From Ulva prolifera (Eukaryota > Chlorophyta > Ulvophyceae > Ulvales > Ulvaceae), in NCBI GenBank assembly GCA_023078555.1, contig CM041197.1:7027810-7091809 (forward strand): a stretch of DNA of 64,000 nt, read 5' to 3'. Under the pieces are notes generated by a model, which made no database searches, was not told the origin of the DNA, and saw only the letters and a list, made by a program, of their open reading frames with translations. A program made the translations under genes and the position numbers. Below are positions 17,207 to 61,019 of this stretch, one piece after another (position 1 is the first letter of the stretch; every line of letters starts with the position of its first letter).

Positions 17207-17209
17207 ACA

Positions 17210-39393: not shown

Positions 39394-39396
39394 CAT
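39394..39396 (+). other. Target site duplication CAT, left copy
   Basis: This is the last satellite B triplet before the CACTA element, within GGTTCCAT. The identical triplet follows the right end at 45,954-45,956. A 3-bp duplication is the characteristic target duplication of CACTA transposons. Confidence 0.88.
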
Positions 39397-39423
39397 CACT
39401 AGGACAAAAGGGCAGTTAGGCAA
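39397..39423 (+). repeat. Left terminal inverted repeat of the CACTA element
   Basis: It begins CACTAGGACAAAAGGG. Compared with the reverse complement of the right end (CACTAGGGAAAGGGGG...), positions 1-7, 10-11, 14-16, 19-21, 23-24 and 27 match. Satellite B contains CACTATG in every sub-repeat, but CACTAGG with the following bases is not satellite sequence. Confidence 0.85.
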
Positions 39424-39759
39424 CATGCCTTTCCACTGTGTCATGATCAAATCCATTACGGATCTCATGAATCGGCACCTTGGCTTTGTGTGTCTCCCAT
39501 GTTGTGACAAGCCGATCACACAATGGATGCATGGCTTTGGCAGTGTGGACCAGGGCATTCCGGTGTGGACAGCACACTTTCCATCGGGATCGCCCTGGGA
39601 AGTACATAATGCATCGTGGCATGAGCCTCATACAGCACCACGCTGGCATGCATGAGATGTTCTGCCAGCATGTTTAAATTGCGGTCCACCAGGGTGAGCA
39701 GCCTGACCATGATGGTTCAGAGACCATCTCAGCCCATGGCAGAGTGAATTGGTTTGGCT
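39424..39759. other. CACTA left subterminal region, no gene recognised
   Basis: Short open frames exist on both strands (for example + 39,425-39,655, 76 codons, and - 39,416-39,649), but they overlap each other in several frames and resemble nothing I know. The region holds the left copy of an inverted subterminal motif at 39,693-39,715. Confidence 0.5.
39693..39715 (+). repeat. Subterminal motif, left copy
   Basis: GGTGAGCAGCCTGACCATGA followed by TGG matches, with one gap and few mismatches, the reverse complement of 45,564-45,588 in the right part of the element. A shorter core, GGTGAGCAGC, is the reverse complement of 45,195-45,204. In En/Spm-type elements, repeated motifs in the subterminal regions bind an element-encoded protein; whether these do is inference. 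Confidence 0.55.
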
Positions 39760-39982
39760 CCATGCTGGGGCAAGGGTTGACCATATTTGCATACACCTCT
39801 CTACAACCCACATTGGATGTGCATCACCTCTGGTCCACTGTGGACTGTCTGCACCCCTTCATACAAACAATCACCAACATTCCCCATGCTGGGGCATGGG
39901 TATACCAGACTTGCACACACCTCTTAGGAAAATGCTGTGGGTGTGCATCAGTTTTGGTCCATCATGGAATGTCCACCCCCCA
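39760..39982 (+). repeat. Imperfect 124-bp direct repeat, two copies, in the CACTA left arm
   Basis: Copy 1 starts at 39,760 and copy 2 at 39,884, both with CCATGCTGGGGCA. The copies share CCATGCTGGGGCAWGGGT, TTGCAYACACCTCT, TGTGCATCA and TGGTCCA in the same order and spacing, at moderate identity, so the duplication is old. It is not coding as far as I can see. Confidence 0.65.
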
Positions 39983-41390
39983 CCATGAGAATGTTCGCCC
40001 ATAACTAATTACTGAGTGGTGTCCACAATGAAATAACGGCAGCCATGCGGGATTCTTGACATCACACGAAAGCCAGAATCATTTCCATTCTACAGTATAC
40101 AGCGATGCATACTGGATGTGCGACATGGAGTGTGTGCAAAATTGGGATTCCACAGTGGATGGTGCATGATCATGGTGGCGTTCATTCAAAATCACCGTAC
40201 TGTGGGTGCGCATGCCGGCGATGCATCATGGTGCCAGTTGTGGTTCACCCCATGCTGGTGGCCAGCAGGGCACCCAGGGCTGTTGTGTTCCCGCCATGCC
40301 CATCAGCATGGCCACTCGTGGCAATGCTAATGGCGCATGGCAGGCTCACCTTCCTGCGTGCCGCTGCTCACTGCACCGCGTCGGAGGCTGTGAGGATGCA
40401 ATCATACCCGGTTCCAGTGCAAGGCAATGGTGCACATTGAGGTGCACACTTTGGTAAGAACATCAGCCGTTGAAGATGACAAAGGCTGGCTGGCTGTGCA
40501 TGCATTCATCATGTGTCAATAACATTGCGTAGCAAGCTCAAGTCATGACAAAGTGATGATTGCACTGCGTTCGCATGCCACGCATGGCCGCAAGACACAC
40601 ATCACGGATATCCGAGCACACATACAAACCTAGCTCAGCTGTGAAGGCTATGTATGTGTACTGTGTTCTGCAGCCTGGTCATGCCAGAGTTCTTGGCAGA
40701 TAGAGGTGCATGGCATAGTCACACCAAATAAGATGGCGGAGATACAATACTAAAAGCACATACCTGGCTTTGAGCGGTCCTGATTTGCACCAATATCCTG
40801 CACTCAGCTGAAGTCAGTATGAGGAGCACCGTCGGTCGATCGCAGGTCACAAATTTAGTCCGGATTTAGCTTCACATTGCATGGTAAAACATTACCCCAT
40901 TTCAGGCAGCGCAGGCAGAGCAGCTTCAATACCTGGCGGTGACAAATGTTCAGCAGAAATTAATCTCTTGAAGCATTCTTGAGTCAGGAAAGTTTTCACC
41001 TGCACACGATCGAGAGAGGTCGTAGTCTAACAACAGTCTAACAATAGTGCATATATCGTCCATCAGCTCAGAGTGGTTCCCACATGACCTTCACCCTGCA
41101 GCTGCTAGCTTCATGTCAGTATCTGCGCATTTTACATTGATCAGATTGCGGCGTACTTGTGAAGCGACGGACAGCTCAATCAGCACCACGTCGAGCATCC
41201 GCAGGTGCTCACATCCTTGAAGAGGATGGCGCACCGCATCACTAACCTCGGAAAATTGCATGATCACTTCTGCGCTGTGTGAGACGCTCCATTGCAGAGC
41301 TGTAGTAATGCGGTGGTCAACAGTCCTTGCGTAACAATGAGGACGCTGACGTTCCGGATACCACGCAACACTGCAGCTATCATGTACTTC
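39983..41390. other. CACTA interior, no recognisable gene or repeat
   Basis: This is about 1.4 kb of unique-looking sequence. The longest frame is + 40,105-40,440 (111 codons), Cys-, Pro- and Val-rich, and overlapped by two other + frames. No domain was recognised. It is a candidate for decayed or intron-split coding sequence, or captured genomic DNA. Confidence 0.4.
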
Positions 41391-42093
41391 TCAAAAGTGA
41401 TCAAATGTGACTGCATAGTTCAGCAAACGATCCGAGAGTCTGCCCGTTGGCGTTAGTGCTCTGTGTAAGCAGGAGAGTGGCTGCGCAGTAGTAACGGGCC
41501 GCGGCCAAGCCCACGTACACCCGAAGATATGTACCAAGGACGATGACAATCGTCCGTGACTCCTTGCTCTTGACATATAAAGGTCGTGTGTCTTCGATCA
41601 GCACTGCCATGATCGCCGAATTGACCCCAGCGCCACATGCGCATTACTGCGACAAGCCAAATGGCGGAGGGTGCACCGCATACACCAGGAACGCCCGGAC
41701 GCATGCTGCCCGCTGACGATCAGAACTAATTTGTAAATCTCATTCTGGTTACAATTTCGTGCAAGGCCGTCATGCGAGTTCTGATCATGTGTGTGATGCT
41801 CGGGCAACATGATGTACATCGTTGAGCATGCACGTCGTACTTCTCCGCCAACCTTTCTCCAACGTTATATGACAGCTGAATTGGCGATAAAATAGGTCGA
41901 CAGCTTGCGTGGGCCTGAGATGTGTACACATGTGCTGCACTCCGTGCTGGCCACACACCTGATGCAAGCTGTGGTCACCAACCAAGAGAAGATCTCTGAA
42001 CCATTGCGAGTAAAGATAGTGGCTATTCTCTGAGGTATGCGGTCCTGCCCTGCTGAAGAGTGTGGCATTTGGGCATATGATGGCTGATCTCAC
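41391..42093 (-). other. Cluster of overlapping minus-strand frames in the CACTA interior, unidentified
   Basis: Several minus-strand frames of 61-102 codons tile this 0.7 kb in all three frames: 41,785-42,093, 41,726-41,956, 41,598-41,819, 41,453-41,704 and 41,401-41,610. The last has a protein-like composition with a hydrophobic middle (IVIVLGTYLRVYVGLAAARYY). No family was recognised. The clustering on one strand could mark exons of a gene with frameshifts or introns, or be chance. A protein-level search is needed before calling it coding. Confidence 0.2.
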
Positions 42094-42937
42094 AGGTGAT
42101 GTCTACCTCCGTTGCAGCCCCCTAGGCCTGATGTGAGACACAATACCATTGCATGAGGTACAGTCACATGCTTAGCATGTCTGCAAATGGCTTGATGCCA
42201 TAGATTCGAGTCGCCGTTCCAAATTGGATCATGCTGCCTCGACACCGTGATGACACCGTGATCATGTTACACGTGTGCATGACCTTGTATCTGATGACCA
42301 AATCAATGATATGATATTTTCTTTTGCAGGTGGAGGAAATGGGTGAATCATGCAGATCTCGGATTCCTACAGTGGCCTATTACGATCGCTGACAGGCCTG
42401 GGCAATCGTGCAACCGGGATCACCATGTGCAGAGTCATATGTGGCTAACTGCAGTCATGGCAGTCATGCAGGCATTAAGCCATTGAGGCACCAGCTGGAC
42501 TAGCAGTAGTAGTGAACGGGTAGTGAGCGATTGTGGTCTGCGTGATTGCTATCAAATGTAACCTTGTTCAAAGATACAAGGCGGCATGCTCTGGCAGGGC
42601 CATGAAAGCTTTATGCACGGTGTGATGTAGTGATTTTGGAGTCTTTGCAGAAACTGCATCCAGTGCCGGCGCCATGTGTTTTGAGCCAGCCCTCTTTCTG
42701 GATCTGATCGTTGAGAGCATCGCTGAGAGCACCATCGCGGCATGTACACAAAACACCGAAGCCGCTTGAAGTGATGGAATGCCTGAATGCGTTGTGTCGT
42801 ACGAAACATGCTAGAGCATGGCTGTGCATATACAATAGAAAAGCGTAGCTTCACTCAATGTCACTCAATGTGCCTCGTGAAACATGCATACATGTAAACC
42901 TGAACATGTGCAAATCCATTTCAGACCACTGTGGTAT
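42094..42937. other. CACTA interior with a possible splice acceptor, no gene recognised
   Basis: TATTTTCTTTTGCAG ends at 42,329, a good match to a eukaryotic 3' splice site. It is followed by a 20-codon frame to TGA (VEEMGESCRSRIPTVAYYDR). A GAG|GTATGC donor-like site lies upstream near 42,033. Minus-strand frames of up to 100 codons (42,552-42,854) overlap in three frames and are not recognised. A spliced gene is only a hypothesis. Confidence 0.2.
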
Positions 42938-43871
42938 GAATCAGTCCGGCTCTGATGCCTTGCATGTGCTTTCCAGGCTTGTATCACAATTGCGGCAGTT
43001 CCAGGTGCTCAGCAGCCAGTAGCAATGATCTGAGGCAGCCCTTCTGCAGCGATCAGGCCCTGATGAGGATCATTCCCTGCTATAAATATGGTCAGGAAGC
43101 AGCATGGCTTTGCAGAATGTCAAAATACGATGCGGCTACAAAGCTGTGCAGAATTGCAGCTGTTTGCGTTTCCCGAATACTCTCCTCATGCACAGAGTCA
43201 CACATTGCCACAGACAAGTGTAGGGTGAATCAAATCAAGCCAAACTTGAACAGACTATGCCATATGAATGTGAGATAGCTGGGGTAGGCTTGAATCAGTC
43301 CTGCCCTGATGCCTTGCATGTGCTTTCCAGGCTTGTATCACAATTGTGGCAGTTGCAGGTGCTCAGCAGCCAGTAGCAATGGTCTGAGGCAGCCCCCCCG
43401 CAGCGATCAGGCCCTGATGAGGATCATTCCCTGCTATAAATATGGTCTGGAAGCAGCATGGCTTTGCAGAATGTCAAAATTCGATGCGGCTACAAAGGTG
43501 TGCAGAATTGCAGCTGTTTGCGTTTCCCGAATACTCTCCTCATGCACAGAGTCACACATTGCCACAGACAAGTGTAGGGTGAATCAAATCAAGCCAAACT
43601 TGAACAGACTATGCCATATGAATGTGAGATAGCTGGGGTAGGCTTGAATCAGTCCTGCCCTGATGCCTTGCATGTGCTTTCCAGGCTTGCACCACAATTG
43701 TGGCAGGTCCAGGTGCTCTGCAGCCAGTAGCAATGTTCTGAGGCAGCCCTCCCGCAGCGATCAGGCCCTGTTGAGGATCATTCCCTGCTGGAAATATGGT
43801 CTGGAAGCAGCATGACTTTGCAGAATGTCAAAATTCGATGCAGCTACGAAGTTGTGCAGAATTGTAGCTGG
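42938..43871 (+). repeat. 354-bp tandem repeat inside the CACTA element, about 2.6 copies
   Basis: GAATCAGTCC starts at 42,938, 43,292 and 43,646, two exact 354-bp steps. Copies 1 and 2 are very similar over their whole length. Copy 3 is more diverged and stops near 43,870, after GTAGCTG. Because 354 is a multiple of three, copies 1 and 2 each contain a 107-codon frame (42,955-43,278 and 43,309-43,632) with near-identical translations. Copy 3 does not keep it. TATAAATA occurs in copies 1 and 2 (43,081 and 43,435) but reads GGAAATA in copy 3. Confidence 0.92.
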
Positions 43872-45118
43872 CCGCGTTTGTGTTTGCAGTGTACTGAAGC
43901 AGCATGAAGGGATAGAGCATTAGAATATGTAGTAGCTGTAGAGACTTGCTGTGTTCTGGTAGTGCCTGTGTTCTGACACGTGCAGCCACACCAACCCCAT
44001 TTGCACAGCTGATGGCGCACCCATCCCAAGAAAAATTGTCTTTTCAATGCAAGTACAACAAGGGTAAGGACCACTGACATGCTTTTTCGGACTTGGGGTG
44101 GGTCCTTCTTAGCCGCTGGTGTGGACGCAACCGTGACCCGACAGTGCAGCAGCGTCACGGTGCTCTGGCGAAGAGGTGAATGCTGCAGGCACATACATTC
44201 GCTTGCATCTCCCGCGACCGTGGCGTCGGTGAGCCGCAGCCTTGGCATGGACAGCGGATATGTCTGGAGTGCAGTCAAGTGGAGCCCCTGTGGCAATGTC
44301 ATAGTGTTTACGCATTTGTTAGTACAAGCTGACCTGATCAGGAAAAAGGCATTTCATGCACACTTCCAGAGCATTGGCCATGCGATCGTGCTCCAGGCAT
44401 TGGTCATTACGCCAATCAAATCACTCGACTATAGCTCATTGAAATGCTAAACAAGCAGATACTTGGTTTTATCGTTTGGTGAACACACGACTTCGGCATG
44501 CGTGTCATGGACCATCGTGTCGACGTTTTCAACAAGACGGCTGTGCTGTTGCCCGTCAATACCTCCATCAATGCGCGCAAGCTATGCCGCTCAAGCGATA
44601 TCAGCAATCACCGTTTACTCATCTTCTTTGCGACATCGACTGACATGGTTCAATCTGCGCCGATGAATGCGTGCGTAACGCAGGCGAGTGCGACGGCACC
44701 GGCACCTTCAGATACGTTGTTTGTGTTGACTGCACTGACTGGTTTGATCGCTTTAGCTCGGTAGCTTTGCAAGTCGCAACAGTCTCAATGGACACTTGAG
44801 CTGCACGCAACCTAACTGCTGCTAGCTGCATTTTTGGCTTCGTACCGAATCGATGCCTCATGGCGTATCAGAATGCTTGCCGTCCATGGGGCCTTTTTTA
44901 GCACATTAACTGCAGCATGGTGTACCTTGTGGACTGTTTCAACAGACTTTTGTCATGTGCTCTTGGCGGCGTGAGCCTCCCGTCCACCGCAGCATTCTTG
45001 CTTAGCAAGCAAGCTAGTGCTTGGAGTACTTCACTCTGTGGTCAATGTTTGCCACCAACAGGGAGGCATCCTAAAGGCTACATGATCGTGACAGCTGCTC
45101 ACAGCTGTGTCTTTCCAT
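43872..45118. other. CACTA interior, unidentified frames on both strands
   Basis: The longest minus frame is 43,844-44,302 (152 codons, with a hydrophobic stretch SVVLTLVVLALKRQFFLGW), overlapped by + 44,079-44,450 (123 codons) and by a second minus frame. Plus frames 44,463-44,666 and 44,498-44,764 follow. None resembles a family I can name with confidence. Mutual overlap on both strands argues that most are chance frames. Confidence 0.25.
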
Positions 45119-45694
45119 CCACTGGTGCTGCCACGATGGTGAGAGCTGAACCCATGCCGTGGCCTGGCCTTAATGCTGTGCCATGGTGGTCTGAGCTGCT
45201 CACCACTGTGGCTGTTGAGGTAACGCACACCATTGCAGAGGTCACCCTTACCAAAGTAGAGTTTGCAAGTGCCCATCGTGGTTCCAATAACATGTCGTGA
45301 GCACAATGGCCGCAGGTGCTGCCACGACGGTGAGAGCTGCACTCATTGCCGTGCCCTGGCCTCAATGCAGTCCCACAATGGTCAGAGATGTGCACCACCG
45401 TGGATGTTTCAGGTACACGCACCATTGTACATGTCATGCTCACCATGGTAGAGTTTTCAAATACCCATAATGGTTACAATTACGTGTTGTACGCACAGTG
45501 GCCACTGGTGCTGCCATGATGGTGAGAGCTGAGCCCCATGGCGTGGCCTGGCCTCAATTCAGCGCCATGATGGTCAAAGCCGCTCACCACCATGGCTATT
45601 TGAGGTAATGCACACCGTTGCACAACTCACCCTCACCATAGTGGAGTTTCCATTTGCCCATACTGGTTCCAAATACATGTTGCACGCACAATGG
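45119..45694 (+). repeat. Diverged 191-bp tandem repeat, three copies, in the CACTA right arm
   Basis: Copies start at 45,119, 45,310 and 45,502 with GGTGCTGCCAYGAYGGTGAG near the 5' end. They share GTGGCCTGGCCTYAAT, CACCATTG, GTAGAGTTT-like and GGTTCCAAT-like segments in order, with substantial divergence between copies. Each copy contains, in reverse orientation, a version of the motif seen near the left end (45,195-45,204 and 45,564-45,588). The position near the terminus suggests a subterminal repeat region. Confidence 0.8.
45564..45588 (-). repeat. Subterminal motif, right copy (inverted)
   Basis: The reverse complement begins GGTGAGCGGCTTTGACCATC and continues ATGGC. It pairs with the left motif at 39,693-39,715 (GGTGAGCAGCCTGACCATGA + TGG). 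Opposite orientation at the two ends is what inverted-terminus elements show. Confidence 0.55.
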
Positions 45695-45926
45695 CCCAGA
45701 CGCAGCGCCACCTTGGTGATGATGTAGTCCGCTATGGCTACAGTGGGGCCATGTTGGCACGAGAGAGCCGCCACGCCAACGTGGTCCAATAGTATTCCAA
45801 GGCACGCTGTGAAGCAGTCCAACATGGATTCCCATCCGTTCCGGGGTGACCCTGTGGGGCGCTAGCCTCCTGCGTGGATTTGCGCAAACCTACGTGGAAC
45901 CTGTGTATCCATGATGGATGTGCCCG
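45695..45926. other. CACTA right subterminal region, no gene recognised
   Basis: This is unique-looking sequence between the 191-bp repeat and the right terminus. Minus frames 45,574-45,825 and 45,596-45,835 extend into it but overlap each other and match nothing known to me. Confidence 0.4.
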
Positions 45927-45953
45927 TCCCCCAACCCCCCCCTTTCCCTAGTG
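45927..45953 (-). repeat. Right terminal inverted repeat of the CACTA element, C-rich on + strand
   Basis: It ends CCCTAGTG. Inside it is C5-AA-C8 at 45,928-45,942, so the minus strand reads G8-TT-G5 just inside CACTAGGGAAA. It is the inverted partner of 39,397-39,423, with the outermost 7 bp perfect. Confidence 0.85.
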
Positions 45954-45956
45954 CAT
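45954..45956 (+). other. Target site duplication CAT, right copy
   Basis: The first bases after the CACTA element, CAT followed by GTCCGTGC, resume the satellite B monomer at exactly the point where the left side stopped. Confidence 0.88.
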
Positions 45957-46515
45957 GTCCGTGCCGTATGTCAGGCACTATGTCGGGCACTATGTAGGCA
46001 TGGTTCCATGTCCGTGCAGTATGTCGGGCACTATGTCTGACACTATATAGGCATGGTTCCATGTCCGTGCAGTATGTCGGGCACTATGTTGGGCACTATG
46101 TAGGCATGGTCCCATGTCCGTGCGGTATGTCGGGCACAATGTCGGGCACTATGTCTGACACTATATAGGCATGGTTCCATGTCCGTGCAGTATGTCGGGC
46201 ACTATGTTGGGCACTGTGTAGGCATGGTTCCATGTCCGTGCGGTATGTCGGGCACTATGTCGGGCACTATGTTGGGCACTATGTAGGCATGGTTCCATGT
46301 CCGTGCAGTATGTCGGGCACTATGTCGAGCACTATGTAGGCATGGTTCCATGTCCGTGCAGTATGCCGGGCACTATGTTGGGCACTATGTAGGCATGGTT
46401 CCATGTCCGTGCGGTATGTCAGGCACTATGTCGGGCACTATGTTGGGCACTATGTAGGCATGGTTCCATGTCCGTGCAGTATGCCGGGCACTATGCCGGG
46501 CACTATGTAGGCATG

Positions 46516-47340
46516 GTCCCATGTCCGTGCGGTATGTCGGGCACTATGTCGAGCACTATGTAGGCATGGTTCCATGTCCGTGCAGTATGCCGGGCACTAT
46601 GTCGGGCACTATGTAGGCATGGTTCCATGTCCATGCAGTATGTCAGGCACTATGTCGGGCACTATGTTGGGCACTATGTAGGCATGGTTCCATGTCCGTG
46701 CAATATGCCGGGCACTATGTCGGGCACTATGTAGGCATGGTTCCGTGTCCGTGCAATATGCCGGGCACTATGTCGGGCACTATGTAGGCATGGTTCCATG
46801 TCCGTGCGGTATGTCGGGCACTATGTCGGGCACTATGTCGGGCACTATGTAGGCATGGTTCCATGTCCGTGCAGTATGTCGGGCACTATGTTGGGCACTA
46901 TGTAGTCATGGTTCCATGTCCGTGCGGTATGCCGGGCACTATGTCGGGCACTATGTTGGGCACTATGTAGGCATGGTTCCATGTCATTGCAGTATGCCGG
47001 GCACTATGTCGGGCACTATGTAGGCATGGTTCCATGTCCGTGCAGTATGTCGGGCACTATGTCGGGCACTATGTAGGCATGGTTCCATTTCCGTGCAGTA
47101 TGTCAGGCACTATGTCGGGCACTATGTAGGCATGGTTCCATGTCCGTGCAGTATGTCGGGCACTATGTCTGACACTATATAGGCATGGTTCCATGTCCGT
47201 GCAGTATGTCGGGCACTATGTTGGGCACTATGTAGGCATGGTCCCATGTCCGTGCGGTATGTCGGGCACTATGTCGAGCACTATGTAGGCATGGTTCCAT
47301 GTCCGTGCAGTATGCCGGGCACTATGTCGGGCACTATGTA
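46516..47340 (+). repeat. Satellite B paralogue of the CACTA flanks (uninterrupted empty-site copy)
   Basis: The variant order here (GGTCCCATG unit, GTCGAGCAC, TCCATGCAG, two GTGCAATATGCC units, a TAGTCATGG unit, a GCGGTATGCC unit) matches the order left of the element up to 39,396. Past GGTTCCAT at 47,088 it matches the order right of the element from 45,954 (TCAGGCAC, then CTGACACTATATAGG, then TTGGGCAC before GGTCCCATG). It is therefore the same higher-order unit without the insertion. Confidence 0.8.
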
Positions 47341-48639
47341 GGCATGGTTCCATGTCCATGCAGTATGTCAGGCACTATGTCGGGCACTATGTTGGGCACT
47401 ATGTAGGCATGGTTCCATGTCCGTGCAGTATGCCGGGCACTATGTCGGGCACTATGTAGGCATGGTTCCATGTCTGTGCGGTATGTCGGGCACTATGTCG
47501 GGCACTATGTCGGGCACTATGTAGGCATGGTTCCATGTCCGTGCAGTATGTCGGGCACTATGTTGGGCACTATGTAGTCATGGTTCCATGTCCGTGCGGT
47601 ATGTCGGGCACTATGTCGGGCACTATGTCGAGCACTATGTAGGCATGGTTCCATGTCCGTGCAGTATGTCGGGCACTATGTTGGGCACTATGTAGGCATG
47701 GTTCCATGTCCGTGCGGTATGTCGGGCACTATGTCGGGCACTATGTTGGGCACTATGTAGGCATGGTTCCATGTCCGTGCAGTATGCCGGGCACTATGCC
47801 GGGCACTATGTAGGTATGGTTCCATGTCCGTGCAGTATGCCGGGCACTATGTCGGGCACTATGTAGGCATGGTTCCATGTCCGTGCAATATGCCGGGCAC
47901 TATGTCGAGCACTATGTAGGCATGGTTCCATGTCCGTGCGGTATGTCGGGCACTATGTCGGGCACTATGTCGGGCACTATGTAGGCATGGTTCCATGCCC
48001 GTGCAGTATGTCGGGCACTATGTTGGGCACTATGTAGGCATGGTTCCATGTCCGTGCGGTATGTCAGGCACTATGTCGGGCACTATGTTGGGCACTATGT
48101 AGGCATGGTTCCATGTCCGTGCAGTATGCCGGGCACTATGTCGGGCACTATGTAGGCATGGTTCCATGTCCGTGCAGTATGTCGGGCACTATGTCGGGCA
48201 CTATGTAGGCATGGTTCCATGTCCGTGCGGTATGTCGGGCACTATGTCGGGCACTATGTCGGGCACTATGTAGGCATGGTTCCATGTCCGTGCAGTATGT
48301 CGGGCACTATGTTGGGCACTATGTAGGCATGGTTCCATGTCCGTGCGGTATGTCAGGCACTATGTCGGGCACTATGTTGGGCACTATGTAGGCATGGTTC
48401 CATGTCCGTGCAGTATGCCGGGCACTATGTCGGGCACTATGTAGGCATGGTCCCATGTCCGTGCGGTATGTCGGGCACTATGTCGAGCACTATGTAGGCA
48501 TGGTTCCATGTCCGTGCAGTATGCCGGGCACTATGTCGGGCACTATGTAGGCATGGTTCCATGTCCATGCAGTATGTCAGGCACTATGTCGGGCACTATG
48601 TTGGGCACTATGTAGGCATGGTTCCATGTCCGTGCAGTA

Positions 48640-51600
48640 TGCCGGGCACTATGTCGGGCACTATGTAGGCATGGTTCCATGTACGTGCAATATGCCGGGC
48701 ACTATGTCGGGCACTATGTAGGCATGGTTCCATGTCCGTGCGGTATGACGGGCACTATGTCGGGCACTATGTCGGGCACTATGTAGGCATGGTTCCATGT
48801 CCGTGCAGTATGTCGGGCACTATGTTGGGCACTATGTAGTCATGGTTCCATGTCCGTGCGGTAAGTCAGGCACTATGTCGGGCACTATGTTGGGCACTAT
48901 GTAGGCATGGTTCAATGTCCGTGCAGTATGTCGGGCACTATGTTGGGCACTATGTAGGCATGGTTCCATGTCCGTGCGGTATGTCGGGCACTATGTCGGG
49001 CACTATGTTTTGCACTATGTAGGCATGGTTCCATGTCCGTGCAGTATGCCGGGCACTATGTCGGGCACTATGTTGGGCACTATGTAGGCATGGTTCCATG
49101 TCCGTGCAGTATGCCGGGCACTATGTCGGGCACTATGTAGGCATGGTTCCATGTCCGTGCAGTATGCCGGGCACTATGTCGGGCACTATGTAGGCATGGT
49201 TCCATGTCCGTGCAGTATGTCAGGCACTATGTCGGGCACTATGTTGGGCACTATGTAGGCATGGTTCCATGTCCGTGCAGTATGCCGGGCACTATGTCGG
49301 GCACTATGTAGGCATGGTTCCATGTCCGTGCAGTATGTCGGGCACTATGTCTGACACTATATAGGCATGGTTCCATGTCCGTGCAGTATGTCAGGCACTA
49401 TTTCGGGCACTATGTAGGCATGGTTCCATGTCCGTGCAGTATGTCGGGCACTATGTCTGACACTATGTAGGCATGGTCCCATGTCCGTGCAATATGCCGG
49501 GCACTATGTCGGGCACTATGTAGGCATGGTTCCGTGTCCGTGCAATATGCCGGGCACTATGTCGGGCACTATGTAGGCATGGTTCCACGTCCGTGCGGTA
49601 TGTCGGGCACTATGTCGGGCACTATGTCGGGCACTATGTAGGCATGGCTCCATGTCCGTGCAGTATGCCGGGCACTATGTCGGGCACTATGTAGGCATGG
49701 TCCCATGTCCGTGCGGTATGTCGGGCACTATGTCGAGCACTATGTAGGCATGGTTCCATGTCCGTGCAGTATGCCGGGCACTATGTTGGGCACTATGTAG
49801 GCATGGTTCCATGTCCGTGCGGTATGTCAGGCACTATGTCGGGCACTATGTTGGGCACTATGTAGGCATGGTTCCATGTCCGTGCAGTATGCCGGGCACT
49901 ATGTCGGGCACTATGTAGGCATGGTTCCATGTCCGTGCAGTATGTCGGGCACTATGTCGGGCACTATGTAGGCATGGTTCCATGTCCGTGCGGTATGTCG
50001 GGCACTATGTCGGGCACTATGTCGGGCACTATGTAGGCATGGTTCCATGTCCGTGCAGTATGTCGGGCACTATGTTGGGCACTATGTAGGCATGGTTCCA
50101 TGTCCGTGCGGTATGTCAGGCACTATGTCGGGCACTATGTTGGGCACTATGTAGGCATGGTTCCATGTCCGTGCAGTATGCCGGGCACTATGTCGGGCAC
50201 TATGTAGGCATGGTCCCATGTCCGTGCGGTATGTCGGGCACTATGTCGAGCACTATGTAGGCATGGTTCCATGTCCGTGCAGTATGCCGGGCACTATGTC
50301 GGGCACTATGTAGGCATGGTTCCATGTCCATGCAGTATGTCAGGCACTATGTCGGGCACTATGTTGGGCACTATGTAGGCATGGTTCCATGTCCGTGCAG
50401 TATGCCGGGCACTATGTCGGGCACTATGTAGGCATGGTTCCATGTACGTGCAATATGCCGGGCACTATGTCGGGCACTATGTAGGCATGGTTCCATGTCC
50501 GTGCGGTATGACGGGCACTATGTCGGGCACTATGTCGGGCACTATGTAGGCATGGTTCCATGTCCGTGCAGTATGTCGGGCACTATGTTGGGCACTATGT
50601 AGTCATGGTTCCATGTCCGTGCGGTAAGTCAGGCACTATGTCGGGCACTATGTTGGGCACTATGTAGGCATGGTTCAATGTCCGTGCAGTATGTCGGGCA
50701 CTATGTTGGGCACTATGTAGGCATGGTTCCATGTCCGTGCGGTATGTCGGGCACTATGTCGGGCACTATGTTTTGCACTATGTAGGCATGGTTCCATGTC
50801 CGTGCAGTATGCCGGGCACTATGTCGGGCACTATGTTGGGCACTATGTAGGCATGGTTCCATGTCCGTGCAGTATGCCGGGCACTATGTCGGGCACTATG
50901 TAGGCATGGTTCCATGTCCGTGCAGTATGCCGGGCACTATGTCGGGCACTATGTAGGCATGGTTCCATGTCCGTGCAGTATGTCAGGCACTATGTCGGGC
51001 ACTATGTTGGGCACTATGTAGGCATGGTTCCATGTCCGTGCAGTATGCCGGGCACTATGTCGGGCACTATGTAGGCATGGTTCCATGTCCGTGCAGTATG
51101 TCGGGCACTATGTCTGACACTATATAGGCATGGTTCCATGTCCGTGCAGTATGTCAGGCACTATTTCGGGCACTATGTAGGCATGGTTCCATGTCTGTGC
51201 AGTATGTCGGGCACTATGTCTGACACTATGTAGGCATGGTCCCATGTCCGTGCGGTATGTCGGGCACTATGTCGAGCACTATGTAGGCATGGTTCCATGT
51301 CCGTGCAGTATGCCGGGCACTATGTCGGGCACTATGTAGGCATGGTTCCATGTCCATGCAGTATGTCAGGCACTATGTCGGGCACTATGTTGGGCACTAT
51401 GTAGGCATGGTCCCATGTCCGTGCGGTATGTCGGGCACTATGTCGAGCACTATGTAGGCATGGTTCCATGTCCGTGCAGTATGCCGGGCACTATGTCGGG
51501 CACTATGTAGGCATGGTTCCATGTCCATGCAGTATGTCAGGCACTATGTCGGGCACTATGTTGGGCACTATGTAGGTATGGTTCCATGTCCGTGCAGTAT

Positions 51601-52040
51601 GCCGGGCACTATGTCGGGCACTATGTAGGCATGGTTCCATGTACGTGCAATATGCCGGGCACTATGTCGGGCACTATGTAGGCATGGTTCCATGTCCGTG
51701 CGGTATGACGGGCACTATGTCGGGCACTATGTCGGGCACTATGTAGGCATGGTTCCATGTCCGTGCAGTATGTCGGGCACTATGTTGGGCACTATGTAGT
51801 CATGGTTCCATGTCCGTGCGGTAAGTCAGGCACTATGTCGGGCACTATGTTGGGCACTATGTAGGCATGGTTCAATGTCCGTGCAGTATGTCGGGCACTA
51901 TGTTGGGCACTATGTAGGCATGGTTCCATGTCCGTGCGGTATGTCGGGCACTATGTCGGGCACTATGTTTTGCACTATGTAGGCATGGTTCCATGTCCGT
52001 GCAGTATGCCGGGCACTATGTCGGGCACTATGTAGCCATG
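48640..52040 (+). repeat. Satellite B block in three copies (offsets 1,763 and 1,197 bp)
   Basis: A distinctive run contains GTACGTGCAATATGCC, GCGGTATGACGGGC, TAGTCATGG, GCGGTAAGTCAGG, GGTTCAATGTCC and TATGTTTTGCAC. It occurs three times, with GTAAGTCAGG at 48,861, 50,624 and 51,821. The first interval is 1,763 bp and the second 1,197 bp, so one copy has lost or gained monomers. The shared rare variants imply recent amplification. Confidence 0.75.
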
Positions 52041-55000
52041 GTTCCATGTCCGTGCAGTATGCCGGGCACTATGTCGGGCACTATGTTGGGCACTATGTAG
52101 GCATGGTTCCATGTACGTGCAATATGCCGGGCACTATGTCGGGCACTATGTAGGCATGGTTCCATGTCCGTGCGGTATGCCGGGCACTATGTCGGGCACT
52201 ATGTTGGGCACTATGTAGGCATGGTTCCATGTCCGTGCAGTATGCCGGGCACTATGTCGGGCACTATGTAGCCATGGTTCCATGTCCGTGCAGTATGCCG
52301 GGCACTATGTCGGGCACTATGTAGGCATGGTTCCATGTCCGTGCAGTATGTCAGGCACTATGTCGGGCACTATGTTGGGCACTATGTAGGCATGGTTCCA
52401 TGTCCGTGCAGTATGCCGGGCACTATGTCGGGCACTATGTAGGCATGGTTCCATGTCCGTGCAGTATGTCGGGCACTATGTCTGACACTATATAGGCATG
52501 GTTCCATGTCCGTGCAGTATGTCAGGCACTATTTCGGGCACTATGTAGGCATGGTTCCATGTCCGTGCAGTATGTCGGGCACTATGTCTGACACTATATA
52601 GGCATGGTTCCATGTCCGTGCAGTATGTCGGGCACTATGTTGGGCACTATGTAGTCATGGTTCCATGTCCGTGCGGTATGTCAGGCACTATGTCGGGCAC
52701 TATGTTGGGCACTATGTAGGCATGGTTCCATGTCCATGCAGTATGTCGGGCACTATGTTGGGCACTATGTAGGCATGGTTCCATGTCCGTGCGGTATGTC
52801 GGGCACTATGTCGGGCACTATGTTGGGCACTATGTAGGCATGGTTCCATGTCCGTGCAGTATGCCGGGCACTATGTCGGGCACTATGTAGGCATGGTTCC
52901 ATGTCCGTGCAGTATGTCAGGCACTATGTCGGGCACTATGTAGGCATGGTTCCATGTCCGTGCAGTATGTCGGGCACTATGTCGGGCACTATGTAGGCAT
53001 GGTTCCATGTCCGTGCAGTATGTCGGGCACTATGCTGGGCACTATGTAGGCATGGTTCCATGTCCGTGCGGTATGTCAGGCAGTATGTCGGGCACTATGT
53101 TGGGCACTATGTAGGCATGATTCCATGTCCGTGCGGTATGTCGGGCACTATGTCGGGCACTATGTTGGGCACTATGTAGGCATGGTTCCATGTCCGTGCG
53201 GTATGTCGGGCACTATGTCGGGCACTATGTAGGCATGGTTCCATGTCCGTGCAGTATGTCAGGCACTATGTCGGGCACTATGTAGGCATGGTTCCATGTC
53301 CGTGCGGTATGTCAGGCACTATGTCGGGCACTATGTTGGGCACTATGTAGGCATGGTTCCATGTCCGTGCAGTATGCCGGGCACTATGCCGGGCACTATG
53401 TAGGCATGGTTCCATGTCCGTGCAGTATGCCGGGCACTATGCCGGGCACTATGTAGGCATGGTTCCATGTCCGTGCAATATGCCGGGCACTATGTCGAGC
53501 ACTATGTAGGCATGGTTCCATGTCCGTGCAGTATGTCGGGCACTATGTTGGGCACTATGTAGGCATGGTTCCATGTCCGTGCGGTATGTCGCGCACTATG
53601 TCGGGCACTATGTCGGGCACTATGTAGGCATGGTTCCATGTCCGTGCAGTATGTCGGGCACTATGTTGGGCACTATGTAGGCATGGTTCCATGTCCGTGC
53701 GGTATGTCAGGCACTATGTCGGGCACTATGTTGGGCACTATGTAGGCATGGTTCCATGTCCGTGCAGTATGCCGGGCACTATGTCGGGCATATGTAGGCA
53801 TGGTCCCATGTCCGTGCGGTATGTCGGGCACTATGTCGAGCACTATGTAGGCATGGTTCCATGTCCGTGCAGTATGCCGGGCACTATGTCGGGCACTATG
53901 TAGGCATGGTTCCATGTCCATGCAGTATGTCAGGCACTATGTCGGGCACTATGTTGGGCACTATGTAGGCATGGTTCCATGTCCGTGCAGTATGCCGGGC
54001 ACTATGTCGGGCACTATGTAGGCATGGTTCCATGTCCGTGCAATATGCCGGGCACTATGTCGGGCACTATGTAGGCATGGTTCCATGTCCGTGCGGTATG
54101 TCGGGCACTATGTCGGGCACTATGTCGGGCACTATGTAGGCATGGTTCCATGTCCGTGCAGTATGTCGGGCACTATGTTGGGCACTATGTAGTCATGGTT
54201 CCATGTCCGTGCGGTATGCCGGGCACTATGTCGGGCACTATGTTGGGCACTATGTAGGCATGGTTCCATGTCCGTGCAGTATGCCGGGCACTATGTCGGG
54301 CACTATGTAGGCATGGTTCCATGTCCGTGCAGTATGTCGGGCACTATGTCGGGCACTATGTAGCCATGGTTCCATGTCCGTGCAGTATGTCAGGCACTAT
54401 GTCGGGCACTATGTAGGCATGGTTCCATGTCCGTGCAGTATGTCGGGCACTATGTCTGACACTATATAGGCATGGTTCCATGTCCGTGCAGTATGTCGGG
54501 CACTATGTTGGGCACTATGTAGGCATGGTCCCATGTCCGTGCGGTATGTCGGGCACTATGTCGAGCACTATGTAGGCATGGTTCCATGTCCGTGCAGTAT
54601 GCCGGGCACTATGTCGGGCACTATGTAGGCATGGTTCCATGTCCATGTAGTATGTCAGGCACTATGTCGGGCACTATGTTGGGCACTATGTAGGCATGGT
54701 TCCATGTCCGTGCAATATGCCGGGCACTATGTCGGGCACTATGTAGGCATGGTTCCATGTCTGTGCGGTATGTCGGGCACTATGTCGGGCACTATGTCGG
54801 GCACTATGTAGGCATGGTTCCATGTCCGTGCAGTATGTCGGGCACTATGTTGGGCACTATGTAGTCATGGTTCCATGTCCGTGCGGGGTGTCGGGCACTA
54901 TGTCGGGCACTATGTCGAGCACTATGTAGGCATGGTTCCATGTCCGTGCAGTATGTCGGGCACTATGTTGGGCACTATGTAGGCATGGTTCCATGTCCGT

Positions 55001-56599
55001 GCGGTATGTCGGGCACTATGTCGGGCACTATGTTGGGCACTATGTAGGCATGGTTCCATGTCCGTGCAGTATGCCGGGCACTATGCCGGGCACTATGTAG
55101 GCATGGTTCCATGTCCGTGCAGTATGCCGGGCACTATGTCGGGCACTATGTAGGCATGGTTCCATGTCCGTGCAATATGCCGGGCACTATGTCGAGCACT
55201 ATGTAGGCATGGTTCCATGTCCGTGCAGTATGTCGGGCACTATGTTGGGCACTATGTAGGCATGGTTCCATGTCCGTGCGGTATGTCGGGCACTATGCCG
55301 GGCACTATGTCAGGCACTATGTAGGCATGGTTCCATGTCTGTGCAGTATGTCGGGCACTATGTTGGGCACTATGTAGGCATGGTTCCATGTCCGTGCGGT
55401 ATGTCAGGCACTATTTCGGGCACTATGTTGGGCACTATGTAGGCATGGTTCCATGTCCGTGCAGTATGCCGGGCACTATGTCGGGCACTATGTAGGCATG
55501 GTTCCATGTCCGTGCAGTATGTCGGGCACTATGTCGAGCACTATGTAGGCATGGTTCCATGTCCGTGCGGTATGTCGGGCACTATGTCGGGCACTATGTC
55601 GGGCACTATGTAGGCATGGTTCCATGTCCGTGCACTATGTCGGGCACTATGTTGGGCACTATGTAGGCATGGTTCCATGTCCGTGCGGTATGTCGGGCAC
55701 TATGTCGGGCACTATGTTGGGCACTATGTAGGCATGGTTCCATGTCCGTGAAGTATGCCGGGCACTATGTCGGGCACTATGTAGGCATGGTTCCATGTCC
55801 GTGCAGTATGCCGGGCACTATGTCGAGCACTATGTAGGCATGGTTCCATGTCCGTGCAGTATTCCGGGCACTATGTCGGGCACTATGTTGGGCACTATGT
55901 AGGCATGGTTCCATGTCCGTGCAGTATGCCGGGCACTATGTCGAGCACTATGTAGGCATGGTTCCATGTCCGTGCAATATGCCGGGCACTATGTCGAGCA
56001 CTATGTAGGCATGGTTCCATGTCCGTGAAGTATGCCGGGCACTATGTCGGGCACTATGTAGGCATGGTTCCATGTCCGTGCAGTATGCCGGGCACTATGT
56101 CGAGCACTATGTAGGCATGGTTCCGTGTCCGTGCAGTATTCCGGGCACTATGTCTGGCACAATGTAGGCATGGTTCCATGTCCGTGCAGTATGTCGGGCA
56201 CTATGTTGGGCACTATGTAGGCATGGTTCCATGTCCGTGCGGTATGTCGGGCACTATGTCGGGCACTATGTTGGGCACTATGTAGGCATGGTTCCATGTC
56301 CGTGCAGTATGCCGGGCACTATGTCGGGCACTATGTAGGCATGGTTCCATGTCCGTGCAGTATGCCGGGCACTATGTCGAGCACTATGTAGGCATGGTTC
56401 CATGTCCGTGCAGTATGCCGGGCACTATGTCGGGCACTATGTAGGCATGGTTCCATGTCCGTGCAGTATGCCGGGCACTATGTTGGGCACTATGTAGGCA
56501 TGGTTCCATGTCCGTGAAGTATGCCGGGCACTATGTCGGGCACTATGTAGGCATGGTTCCATGTCCGTGCAGTATGCCGGGCACTATGTCGAGCACTAT

Positions 56600-58860
56600 G
56601 TAGGCATGGTCCCATGTCCGTGTGGTATGTCGGGCATTATGTCGGGCACTATGTAGGCATGGTTCCATGTCCGTGCAGTATGTCGGGCACTATGTTGGGC
56701 ACTATGTAGGCATGGTTCCATGTCCGTGCGGTATGTCGGGCACTATGTCGGGCACTATGTTGGGCACTATGTAGGCATGGTTCCATGTCCGTGTAGTGTG
56801 CCGGGCACTATGTCGGGCAATATGTAGGCATGGTTCCATGTCCGTGCAATATGCCGGGCACTATGTCGAGCACTATGTAGGCATGGTTCCATGTCCGTGA
56901 AGTATGCCGGGCACTATGTCGGGCACTATGTCGGGCACTATGTAGGCATGGTTCCATGTCCGTGCAGTATGCCGGGCACTATGTCGAGCACTATGTAGGC
57001 ATGGTCCCATGTCCGTGCGGTATGTCGGGCATTATGTCGGGCACTATGTAGGCATGGTTCCATGTCCGTGCAGTATGTCGGGCACTATGTTGGGCACTAT
57101 GTAGGCATGGTTCCATGTCCGTGCGGTATGTCGGGCACTATGTCGGGCACTATGTTGGGCACTATGTAGGCATGGTTCCATGTCCGTGCAGTATGCCGGG
57201 CACTATGTTGGGCACTATGTAGGCATGGTTCCGTGTCCGTGCAGTATGCCGGGCACTATGTCGAGCACTATGTAGGCAAGGTTCCATGTCCGTGCAGTAT
57301 GCCGGGCACTATGTTGGGCACTATGTAGGCATGGTTCCATGTCCGTGCAGTATGCCGGGCACTATGTCGGGCACTATGTAGGCATGGTTCCATGTCCGTG
57401 CAGTATGTCGGGCACTATGTTGGGCACTATGTAGGCATGGTTCCATGTCCGTGCGGTATGTCGGGCACTATGTCGGGCACTATGTTGGGCACTATGTAGG
57501 CATGGTTCCATGTCCGTGCAGTATGCCGGGCACTATGTTGGGCACTATGTAGGCATGGTTCCGTGTCCGTGCAGTATGCCGGGCACTATGTCGGGCACTA
57601 TGTAGGCAAGGTTCCATGTCCGTGCAGTATGCCGGGCACTATGTTGGGCACTATGTAGGCATGGTTCCATGTCCGTGCAGTATGCCGGGCACTATGTCGG
57701 GCACTATGTAGGCATGGTTCCATGTCCGTGCAGTATGCCGGGCACTATGTCGAGCACTATGTAGGCATGGTTCCATGTCCGTGCAGTATGCCGGGCACTA
57801 TGTCGGGCACTATGTAGGCATGGTTCCATGTCCGTGCAGTATGCCGGGCACTATGTTGGGCACTATGTAGGCATGGTTCCATGTCCGTGAAGTATGCCGG
57901 GCACTATGTCGGGCACTATGTAGGCATGGTTCCATGTCCGTGCAGTATGCCGGGCACTATGTCGAGCACTATGTAGGCATGGTCCCATGTCCGTGTGGTA
58001 TGTCGGGCATTATGTCGGGCACTATGTAGGCATGGTTCCATGTCCGTGCAGTATGTCGGGCACTATGTTGGGCACTATGTAGGCATGGTTCCATGTCCGT
58101 GCGGTATGTCGGGCACTATGTCGGGCACTATGTTGGGCACTATGTAGGCATGGTTCCATGTCCGTGTAGTGTGCCGGGCACTATGTCGGGCAATATGTAG
58201 GCATGGTTCCATGTCCGTGCAATATGCCGGGCACTATGTCGAGCACTATGTAGGCATGGTTCCATGTCCGTGAAGTATGCCGGGCACTATGTCGGGCACT
58301 ATGTCGGGCACTATGTAGGCATGGTTCCATGTCCGTGCAGTATGCCGGGCACTATGTCGAGCACTATGTAGGCATGGTCCCATGTCCGTGCGGTATGTCG
58401 GGCATTATGTCGGGCACTATGTAGGCATGGTTCCATGTCCGTGCAGTATGTCGGGCACTATGTTGGGCACTATGTAGGCATGGTTCCATGTCCGTGCGGT
58501 ATGTCGGGCACTATGTCGGGCACTATGTTGGGCACTATGTAGGCATGGTTCCATGTCCGTGCAGTATGCCGGGCACTATGTTGGGCACTATGTAGGCATG
58601 GTTCCGTGTCCGTGCAGTATGCCGGGCACTATGTCGAGCACTATGTAGGCAAGGTTCCATGTCCGTGCAGTATGCCGGGCACTATGTTGGGCACTATGTA
58701 GGCATGGTTCCATGTCCGTGCAGTATGCCGGGCACTATGTCGGGCACTATGTAGGCATGGTTCCATGTCCGTGCAGTATGCCGGGCACTATGTCGGGCAC
58801 TATGTAGGCATGGTTCCATGTCCGTGCGGTATGTCGGGCATTATGTCGGGCACTATGTAG
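56600..58860 (+). repeat. Satellite B tandem duplication, 1,373-bp offset
   Basis: GTGTAGTGTGCCGGG with a following GGGCAATATG unit occurs at 56,791 and 58,164, an offset of 1,373 bp. Adjacent variants (GTGTGGTATG with GGGCATTATG, AGGCAAGGTTCC) keep the same order in both copies. Confidence 0.7.
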
Positions 58861-61019
58861 GCATGGTTCCATGTCCGTGCAGTATGTCGGGCACTATGTT
58901 GGGCACTATGTAGGCATGGTTCCATGTCCGTGCGGTATGTCGGGCACTATGTCGGGCACTATGTTGGGCACTATGTAGGCATGGTTCCATGTCCGTTGTA
59001 GTGTGCCGGGCACTATGTCGGGCACTATGTAGGCATGGTTCCATGTCCGTGCAGTATGCCGGGCACTATGTCGAGCACTATGTAGGCATGGTTCCGTTTC
59101 CGTGCAGTATTCCGGGCACTATGTCTGGCACAATGCAGGCATGGTTCCATGTCCGTGCAGTATGTCGGGCACTATGTTGGGCACTATGTAGGCATGGTTC
59201 CATGTCCGTGCGGTATGTCGGGCACTATGTCGGGCACTATGTTGGGCACTATGTAGGCATGGTTCCATGTTCGTGCAGTATGCCGGGCACTATGCCGGGC
59301 ACTATGTAGGCATGGTTCCATGTCCGTGCAGTATGCCGGGCACTATGTCGAGCACTATGTAGGCATGGTTCCATGTTCGTGCAGTATGCCGGGCACTATG
59401 TCGGGCACTATGTAGGCATGGTTCCATGTCCGTGCAGTATGCCGGGCACTATGTCGAGCACTATGTAGGCATGGTTCCGTGTCCGTGCAGTATTCCGGGC
59501 ACTATGTCTGGCACAATGCAGGCATGGTTCCATGTCCGTGCAGTATGTCGGGCACTATGTTGGGCACTATGTAGGCATGGTTCCATGTCCGTGCGGTATG
59601 TCGGGCACTATGTCGGGCACTATGTTGGGCACTATGTAGGCATGGTTCCATGTCCGTGCAGTATGCCGGGCACTATGCCGGGCACTATGTAGGCATGGTT
59701 CCATGTCCGTGCAGTATGCCGGGCACTATGTCGAGCACTATGTAGGCATGGTTCCATGTTCGTGCAGTATGCCGGGCACTATGTCGGGCACTATGTAGGC
59801 ATGGTTCCATGTCCGTGCAGTATGCCGGGCACTATGTTGGGCACTATGTAGGCATGGTTCCATGTCCGTGAAGTATGCCGGGCACTATGTCTGGCACAAT
59901 GCAGGCATGGTTCCATGTCCGTGCAGTATGTCGGGCACTATGTTGGGCACTATGTAGGCATGGTTCCATGTCCGTGCGGTATGTCGGGCACTATGTCGGG
60001 CACTATGTTGGGCACTATGTAGGCATGGTTCCATGTCCGTGCGGTATGTCGGGCACTATGTCGGGCACTATGTTGGGCACTATGTAGGCATGGTTCCATG
60101 TCCGTGAAGTATGCCGGGCACTATGTCGGGCACTATGTAGGCATGGTTCCATGTCCGTGCAGTATGCCGGGCACTATGTCGAGCACTATGTAGGCATGGT
60201 TCCGTGTCCGTGCAGTATTCCGGGCACTATGTCTGGCACAATGCAGGCATGGTTCCATGTCCGTGCAGTATGTCGGGCACTATGTTGGGCACTATGTAGG
60301 CATGGTTCCATGTCCGTGCGGTATGTCGGGCACTATGTCGGGCACTATGTTGGGCACTATGTAGGCATGGTTCCATGTCCGTGCAGTATGCCGGGCACTA
60401 TGCCGGGCACTATGTAGGCATGGTTCCATGTCCGTGCAGTATGCCGGGGCACTATGTCGAGCACTATGTAGGCATGGTTTCCATGTTCGTGCAGTATGCC
60501 GGGCACTATGTCGGGCACTATGTAGGCATGGTTCCATGTCCGTGCAGTATGCCGGGCACTATGTTGGGCACTATGTAGGCATGGTTCCATGTCCGTGAAG
60601 TATGCCGGGCACTATGTCGGGCACTATGTAGGCATGGTTCCATGTCCGTGCAGTATGCCGGGCACTATGTCGAGCACTATGTAGGCATGGTCCCATGTCC
60701 GTGCGGTATGTCGGGCATTATGTCGGGCACTATGTAGGCATGGTTCCATGTCCGTGCAGTATGTCGGGCACTATGTTGGGCACTATGTAGGCATGGTTCC
60801 ATGTCCGTGCGGTATGTCGGGCACTATGTCGGGCACTATGTTGGGCACTATGTAGGCATGGTTCCATGTCCGTGAAGTATGCCGGGCACTATGTCGGGCA
60901 CTATGTAGGCATGGTTCCATGTCCGTGCAGTATGCCGGGCACTATGTCGAGCACTATGTAGGCATGGTTCCATGTCCGTGCAGTATTCCGGGCACTATGT
61001 CGGGCACTAGTGTTGGGCA

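Follow-up and report, generated by a model that had tools for sequence, protein, structure and literature searches.

Transposons of the CACTA/EnSpm (CMC) type have CACTA termini, make 3-bp duplications of their target and carry clusters of short repeats near their ends, and non-coding, dSpm-like copies occur beside coding relatives with the same ends. In the Chapaev and Mirage groups the target duplication measures 4 bp and 2 bp, respectively. The element described here lies in a 64-kb stretch of DNA (the window) and agrees with the general CACTA/EnSpm pattern in its CAC(TA)..(TA)GTG termini, its 3-bp duplication, its clusters of short subterminal repeats and its standing as a non-coding copy beside same-ended coding relatives. 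It differs from dSpm-like derivatives in that deletion from the coding relative does not by itself account for its interior: by BLAST the two have only their end regions and a 46-bp patch in common. It differs from the class at large in its subterminal motif, a 9-bp gapped palindrome (CCANNNTGG), and in the putative transposase of its long relatives, which Pfam Transposase_21 does not match.

Two published sets can be compared by description. Jozin and the related Chenopodium CACTA elements, as presented in the excerpts of PMC8978399, likewise have 3-bp duplications, subterminal repeats and, in some elements, internal tandem repeats; unlike the present family they are from a plant, encode recognised Transposase_21, TAD and DUF4216, and have subterminal units of 10-20 bp rather than 9 bp. 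They also have DUF4218 beside Transposase_21 (same excerpts); likeness to DUF4218 here stays below the cut-off. The fungal EnSpm families, in the excerpts of PMC12730594, are classified by the same CAC..GTG ends and 3-bp duplications, and their second D and last E enclose C(2)C and H(3-4)H, but they are fungal and carry a TET/JBP gene. The same excerpts give PlavakaA TGT..ACA ends with a 2-bp duplication, PlavakaB CATCA..TGATG ends with a 2- or 3-bp duplication, and Zisupton (of KDZ) an 8-bp duplication.

The element is 6,557 bp long (39397..45953, forward strand), recognised by its termini, target duplication, empty site and genomic matches, and it interrupts a satellite B array on the forward strand that extends from 17989 to 39396 on its left and from 45954 to 64000 on its right. 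Its left terminal repeat (39397..39423, forward strand) opens with a perfect CACTAGG and is imperfect thereafter; the right one (45927..45953, reverse strand) ends in CCTAGTG and has a C homopolymer tract inside it. CAT can be read directly on either side (39394..39396 and 45954..45956). CACTAGG, CCTAGTG and the CAT flanks stand where the original prediction had put them, and we obtained the same count of 18 matches over the first 27 bases of both ends. The further claim that removing the segment and one CAT leaves a continuous satellite B monomer was borne out by BLAST: when 60 bp from each side are joined with a single CAT retained, intact satellite monomers of the window align to them over 120/120 bp, ungapped, at 98.3%, and all eight among the matches listed (the best four per side) are ungapped in like manner. 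The satellite holds the 5-mer CACTA 1,536 times in 39,437 bp, so the bare motif is worthless as evidence here; the 7-mers CACTAGG and CCTAGTG occur twice and three times, respectively, in the window.

What decides the matter is the presence of copies elsewhere in the same genome (88.9 Mb, photosynthetic, with genes for chlorophyll-a/b-binding, LHCII-like proteins). The element has 61 matches there, the window copy included. A left-end pattern finds 18 matches and, with 30 specified bases, fits 13 other places without mismatch; a right-end pattern (27 specified bases, just inside the right terminal repeat) fits 13 places, and the backwards-pattern control of each finds none. Perfect 3-bp target duplications flank all six two-ended copies of the window's type, or seven of nine two-ended copies when three long ones are included, the chance of a single 3-bp flank match being about 1/64. 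Together the end matches and the duplications establish that the element is real and mobile. Of the two observations that the original prediction named as refuting it, a lack of other copies with these ends and homology running beyond them, neither was made: the other copies stop at the same bases and have unrelated flanks. Four loci (L014, L015, L016 and L018) have their first 1,667 bases in common and the same left flank as L002, so we count them as duplicated DNA rather than as separate insertion events. An Rfam search of these loci gave no rRNA.

Both ends are crowded with CCANNNTGG. Nine copies lie in the left subterminal region (39638..40258) and 17 in the right (45131..45917), that is, within the first and last 1,000 bp of the element, where 200 shuffles gave means of 1.19 and 0.85 and maxima of 6 and 5. 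The motif was first spotted by eye in this element. No other of the 64 triplet palindromes exceeds 4 copies in the element's ends, and the remaining 57,443 bp of the window hold no CCANNNTGG. Terminal and interior copies number 26 and 2 in the window element and 30 and 4 in its long relative. Two left-hand copies sit at identical positions (242 and 311) in both, so common descent, and not function, could keep part of the pattern. With that proviso, CCANNNTGG is a plausible candidate for a transposase-binding site.

The interior is of another kind. It contains a 354-bp tandem repeat of 2.6 copies (42937..43879, forward strand), found by trf and seen as repeated BLAST blocks in L003-L010, whose copy number varies among the genomic copies, and a 192-bp tandem repeat of 3.0 copies (45119..45696, forward strand), which overlaps the right subterminal region. 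At 44139..44141 the window copy has a single CGA where other copies hold a further 941-956 bp with CGA on both sides. A separate transposon at this point is disfavoured: the segment has seven matches in the genome, five of them nearly whole length, and each lies within a copy of the window's family. Since it sits only there, and in some copies that are only about 89-93% identical to the window copy, it is simpler to suppose that certain copies have lost it by deletion between CGA repeats.

Coding capacity appears to be absent. The longest stop-to-stop frame of the window element, at 169 aa, falls within what 200 mononucleotide shuffles produce (median 146, 95% point 193); when 10 of its 49 listed frames were put to Pfam, the only two matches lay below the cut-off; Rfam found nothing in the element, and a plasmid collection held no match to it. 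It is very likely that the window element makes no protein, and the autonomous element implied by the original prediction gives way to a non-autonomous one.

A gene does occur in longer relatives, at four loci, three of which, 19-22 kb in length, have both ends. C2:6381385-6400351, which was read from end to end, is 18,967 bp long with the target duplication GTA. By BLAST it matches the window element at the 5' end (1-202, 69%), at the 3' end (5723-6557, 835 bp, 87%) and in the 46-bp patch only, and its coding region has no counterpart there. In the other two two-ended long copies the 3-bp flanks disagree (C2:3761908-3781507, acg/tgc; C3:6397764-6419761, ccc/agg); one of them has a right flank common to another locus, which may point to rearrangement.

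The gene in C2:6381385-6400351 is divided among several exons and shows the motifs D, D, C(2)C, H(4)H and W-x-E-R, like CACTA/EnSpm (CMC) transposases. A 170-aa query taken from it has 16 matches in the genome. The main exon (query residues 29-170) is 98% identical and stop-free in the four long loci, within open frames of 423-478 aa; the remaining matches fall in the short first exon at those loci, in two broken C1 loci and in two loci 26-27% identical. In blastp against frames of ten loci of the genome's second CACTA family and its relatives, the catalytic piece matched L054 (3.4e-6) and L075 (1.6e-8) and the C-terminal piece L040 (2.0e-7) and L077 (1.7e-8), while the N-terminal piece had no homologue among those frames. 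D, D and CxxC are invariant in all three aligned sequences, and H-x4-H followed by W-x-E-R is found in the long element and in L034, L039-L050, L077, L078, L079 and L080. DUF4218 is the top Pfam match, below the cut-off, in six of seven scanned sequences with this transposase exon (E 0.0053-0.13); the seventh is the long element itself, for whose exons, whether taken singly or joined, Pfam offered nothing relevant. With the Pfam and N-terminal searches empty, membership among the transposases rests on the motifs and on homology to those sub-cut-off relatives. The D, D, C(2)C, H(4)H and E residues, seen in the long element's gene and in related frames, fit the signature D, D, C(2)C, H(3-4)H, E (PMC12730594) and are candidate catalytic residues. 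The original prediction had suggested a search with Transposase_21; run on the genome, this profile (PF02992) gave no match, and the control was likewise silent in all 14 genomes, so we do not take this result as absence. The candidate helper was reached only through the shared termini.

How else might the segment be explained? One could suppose that two short motifs are paired by chance, or that the assembly is at fault where it meets the satellite, in which CACTA is extremely common. Yet on four contigs (C1, C2, C3 and C5) there are copies with both ends that terminate at identical bases, between matching 3-bp flanks and in differing surroundings; these copies refute that view, and its probability is negligible. 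It is also very improbable that the window copy is itself autonomous, its transposase too divergent or intron-split to recognise. The CACTA genes of this genome are intron-split and Pfam scarcely detects them, so the lack of a Pfam match says little by itself; but the longest frame is of a size that shuffling also gives, BLAST finds no counterpart here to the long element's coding region, and in tblastn the long element's frames (at least 50 aa) match the window element only at 2-602 and 5674-6556, the shared ends. Frames of ten loci of the second family and others gave four tblastn matches at E 0.004-0.010, two of them interior (4674-4796), in a search in which four transposase pieces did match the long element they came from. 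Autonomy of this copy is thus largely refuted.

More serious, though still unlikely, is movement by the second and much commoner CACTA family, with ends CACTAGGAGAATGGCGAC, in place of the long relatives. It too has CACTAG termini and 3-bp duplications (AGA, TTC), it and its relatives account for 150 transposase matches among those listed, and one of its copies is nested in a copy of the window's family. Its 300-bp ends, however, have no BLAST match to those of the window element beyond CACTAG, and CCANNNTGG occurs three times in its first 1,000 bp and once in its last, where shuffles reach at most 2 in either, which is at most a trace of the clusters common to the window element and the long relative. 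The 17.7-kb nested element C1:3931097-3948780 was considered as the autonomous form and rejected: its ends and subterminal motifs differ, which assigns it to the second family. We also think it decidedly improbable that the element belongs to a related CMC group (Plavaka, Chapaev, Mirage) or to KDZ and not to EnSpm/CACTA proper. The 3-bp duplication departs from the 4 bp of Chapaev and the 2 bp of Mirage. In the excerpts of PMC12730594 the wider CMCT group has this signature of C(2)C and H(3-4)H in common, but CAC..GTG ends with 3-bp duplications are described as consistent with EnSpm, and the termini and duplications drawn there for Plavaka and Zisupton are not those of CACTAGG..CCTAGTG with 3 bp.

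We therefore hold with high confidence that the 6,557-bp segment is a non-autonomous CACTA/EnSpm-type DNA transposon, inserted in satellite B with duplication of CAT and presumably moved by a transposase from its long relatives. Independent copies, the empty site and a CMC-type transposase gene in longer same-ended relatives all back the predicted CACTA-type insertion. Movement would presumably be by cut-and-paste: relatives of about 19-22 kb would supply the transposase, which may bind the CCANNNTGG palindromes near both ends and bring those ends together; cuts would be made next to CACTAGG/CCTAGTG, and the element would be joined to its new site with a 3-bp stagger. More tentatively, and leaning slightly against it ourselves, we suggest that this is a divergent CACTA lineage of an alga that has a subterminal code to itself. 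One transposase, which the models Transposase_21 and DUF4218 miss, would read the CCANNNTGG palindromes, and a large non-autonomous partner, whose tandem-repeat interior is wholly unlike, would use those ends and have out-copied it.

The original prediction also spoke of a new or unnamed family. The kind is well known; that the family is new remains plausible, weakly tested by the exact text of one 16-base terminal string, which was not found in open-access paper text. Among the titles and openings of abstracts listed for CACTA/EnSpm elements in green algae or beside satellites, none likewise dealt with a family of this sort in a green alga. In most respects this is unexceptional transposon biology within a satellite. 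Beyond that, it shows that termini can lead to a CACTA family of an alga that escaped the standard transposase profile, and it offers a master and partner pair in one genome, with the same ends, the same subterminal palindromes and different interiors, in which CCANNNTGG offers a candidate site of transposase binding that can readily be tested.

Direct reading places the window element at window positions 39,397-45,953 (6,557 bp), with CACTAGG at its start, CCTAGTG at its finish, CAT flanking both sides, and 18/27 positions identical between its two termini, all as originally predicted. The original prediction also held that removal of the segment and one CAT leaves a continuous satellite monomer. 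This is borne out: when 60 bp of left flank and 60 bp of right flank are joined through a single CAT, the rebuilt empty site aligns to satellite monomers, ungapped, over 120/120 bp at 98.3%. With four matches allowed per side, all eight matches shown were of this quality, and they lie on both sides of the insertion. The host array (53/171-bp periods) extends from 17,989 to the end of the window. Please note that a bare CACTA is no proof of an element, because the satellite carries this 5-mer 1,536 times; CACTAGG occurs twice in the window. Two observations concern the satellites themselves. Satellite A (346-bp unit, 162/184-bp subunits) apparently flips at window 17155-17228, units past 17,228 being the reverse complement of earlier ones, and satellite B seemingly also occurs far from the window, as the start of contig C2 (L060, positions 1-300) resembles it.

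The genome containing the window comprises 88.9 Mb in 44 contigs. The host is photosynthetic, with 38 matches to the chlorophyll-a/b-binding family; the one searched further is similar to chlorophyll a-b binding proteins of solved structure and to Lhcb proteins, which may place the host in the green lineage. The window element finds 61 matches in this genome, itself counted, and the others longer than 3 kb are 96-98% identical to it. When up to three mismatches are allowed, the left-end pattern occurs at 18 places (14 without mismatch, the window's own among them) and a pattern immediately internal to the right end at 13; backwards control patterns gave no match for either end in the same scan.

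Pairing ends by position and strand yields nine two-ended copies, six of window type and three longer. The further copies expected from the original prediction, with the same termini and 3-bp duplications, were thus found, as the 3-bp flanks are identical in 6/6 window-type copies: the window copy itself (CAT), C3:6895675-6903286 (CCC), C3:6145772-6155168 (ATG), C3:4796452-4804265 (ACA), C1:3922967-3949186 (CGG, with a nested 17.7-kb element), and C5:8822729-8833528 (GTG, ends alone read). Among the longer copies, C2:6381385-6400351 has GTA on both sides, and the flanks do not match at C2:3761908-3781507 (acg/tgc) and C3:6397764-6419761 (ccc/agg). At least the former of these two loci is likely rearranged, because the right flank at C2:3781507 is identical to that at C2:3860535.

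Window-type copies differ in length through a 354-bp tandem array (2.6 units in the window element, which also has a 192-bp array of 3.0 units). A 941-956-bp internal segment is absent from the window copy and from two others (L003/L009 and L004/L010); its seven genomic matches all lie in copies of this family, with CGA on either side where it is present. In L007, ~309 bp (1192-1500) are inserted in the 354-bp array, and the flanking matches overlap by 5 bases. Broken copies also occur. Right ends were not found in L002 with L031 or in L005 with L024, and L017 and L025 show a poly-C expansion at the right end. At L008 4787-4803, the 16-base left end CACTAGGACAAAAGGG is doubled in tandem, as if duplicated during insertion or repair. 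Five loci (L014, L015, L016, L018, and L002) have a common left flank and element start; four of them, on the small contigs C13, C15, and C16 and on C2, change to other DNA past element position 1,667. The copy at C2:10563095-10580888 (L019, L072), for which no left end was found, is interrupted at element 955-957 by ~16.9 kb, and its two parts overlap by 3 bases, which looks like the insertion of another element.

No protein was found in the window element by frame length, Pfam, or tblastn. Its longest stop-to-stop frame (169 aa) exceeds the median of 200 mononucleotide shuffles (146) but falls below their 95% point (193). Of the 49 listed frames that reach 60 aa, ten were scanned against Pfam, giving two matches, both below cut-off. 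In tblastn (E up to 0.01), frames of the long relative matched only element 2-602 and 5674-6556, the end regions common to both elements. Frames of ten other transposase loci gave four matches (E 0.004-0.010), two of them interior (4674-4796). As a control, all four transposase pieces recovered their source, the long element.

These long relatives are the likely helper. The one read through, C2:6381385-6400351 (18,967 bp), has the same outermost bases as the window element and aligns with it over 202 bp at the 5' end (69%) and 835 bp at the 3' end (87%). The two also share a 46-bp patch (element 546-591), and the 192-bp repeats give additional matches from element position 5674 on. This long relative carries a multi-exon gene on the opposite strand, with exon joins set by eye. 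The other three are known from end sequences and from matches to a 170-aa query (two exons joined), which finds 16 in the genome. Its main exon (query 29-170) is matched at 98% identity, with no stop, at C2:3775099, C2:6387290, C3:6403645, and C2:3854131, in open frames of 423-478 aa. The short first exon is matched in the same four loci across one TGA, which we place at the proposed splice donor. The remaining matches lie in two broken loci on C1 (10522xxx, 10646xxx) and, at 26-27% identity, at C1:8792545 and C10:960991. Both ends are kept at three of the four main-exon loci. The fourth, C2:3854131, has the right end at C2:3860535 downstream of it, and a scan allowing 3 mismatches gave no left end that belongs to it.

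The gene of the long element has no relevant Pfam match, and a Transposase_21 search of the whole genome was silent, as was its control. Against the small set formed by the frames of ten loci, to which these E-values refer, its catalytic piece matched L054 (second CACTA family, ends CACTAGGAGAATGGCGAC..GTCGCCATTCTTCTAGTG) at 3.4e-6 and L075 at 1.6e-8, and its C-terminal piece L040 (second family) at 2.0e-7 and L077 at 1.7e-8; the N-terminal piece matched none. These matches relate the catalytic and C-terminal pieces to transposase-like frames in the second family and in relatives. A three-sequence alignment keeps both aspartates (D-G, D-x-P) and a C-x-x-C. The C-terminal exon carries H-x4-H, ~20 residues, and W-x-E-R in the long element, L034, L039-L050, L077, L078, L079, and L080, a pattern whose regular expression occurred once in 50 six-frame shuffles of the long element. 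DUF4218, which is described as accompanying Transposase_21 in plant CACTA elements (PMC8978399), was the top Pfam match in 6/7 scanned C-terminal-exon sequences (E 0.0053-0.13, all below the curated cut-off); the seventh, from the long element itself, had no DUF4218 match.

Transposase exons from the second family and relatives abound (150 listed places, most rows without a stop), and their frame lengths point to several families. An element that looks complete lies at about C10:1819.07k-1837.02k (duplication TTC). Another (C1:3931097-3948780; L006, L034, L037, L038; 17,684 bp, duplication AGA), with CACTAGGAGAATGGCGAC..GTCGCCATTCTTCTAGTG ends, is nested in a copy of the window element's family and itself hosts a Copia-type retrotransposon with 355-bp LTRs 99.7% identical. 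A 702-aa frame of this nested element (L037 and neighbours; element positions 6885-8990, minus strand) has no Pfam match; our impression only is that it ends in an Ulp1-type peptidase.

The gapped palindrome CCANNNTGG first came to notice on visual inspection of the window element; fairer tests are the left end of the long element and a comparison of all 64 possible triplet palindromes. In the window element, the first 1,000 bp contain 9 copies (200 shuffles: mean 1.19, maximum 6), the last 1,000 bp 17 (mean 0.85, maximum 5), and the 4,557 bp between two. The remaining 57,443 bp of the window contain none, and the next-highest count among the 64 at the ends of the window element is 4. The long element has 12 in its first kb, 18 in its last, and 4 in the 16,967 bp between. 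Its 12 left-hand copies all fall past position 203 and hence beyond the 5' alignment, one of them inside the 46-bp patch. Distant common descent may also lie behind the pattern, because two copies, at 242 and 311, coincide in both elements. Read most simply, the palindromes would be binding sites for the transposase of the long element. In the second family, the first kilobase has 3 copies and the last has 1 (shuffle maxima 2 and 2), a trace at most.

The window element is of a known kind, CACTA/EnSpm, and its family is new as far as could be tested; one exact-text search of an open-paper library for a 16-base terminal string found nothing. Its ends are like those of the long element, whereas its interior, with the 354-bp and 192-bp arrays, is unlike. 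In the most likely mechanism, the window copy would contribute its ends alone: the transposase of the long element would bind the palindromes near both of them, pair the two, cut beside CACTAGG/CCTAGTG, and insert the window element at a new site with a 3-bp stagger.
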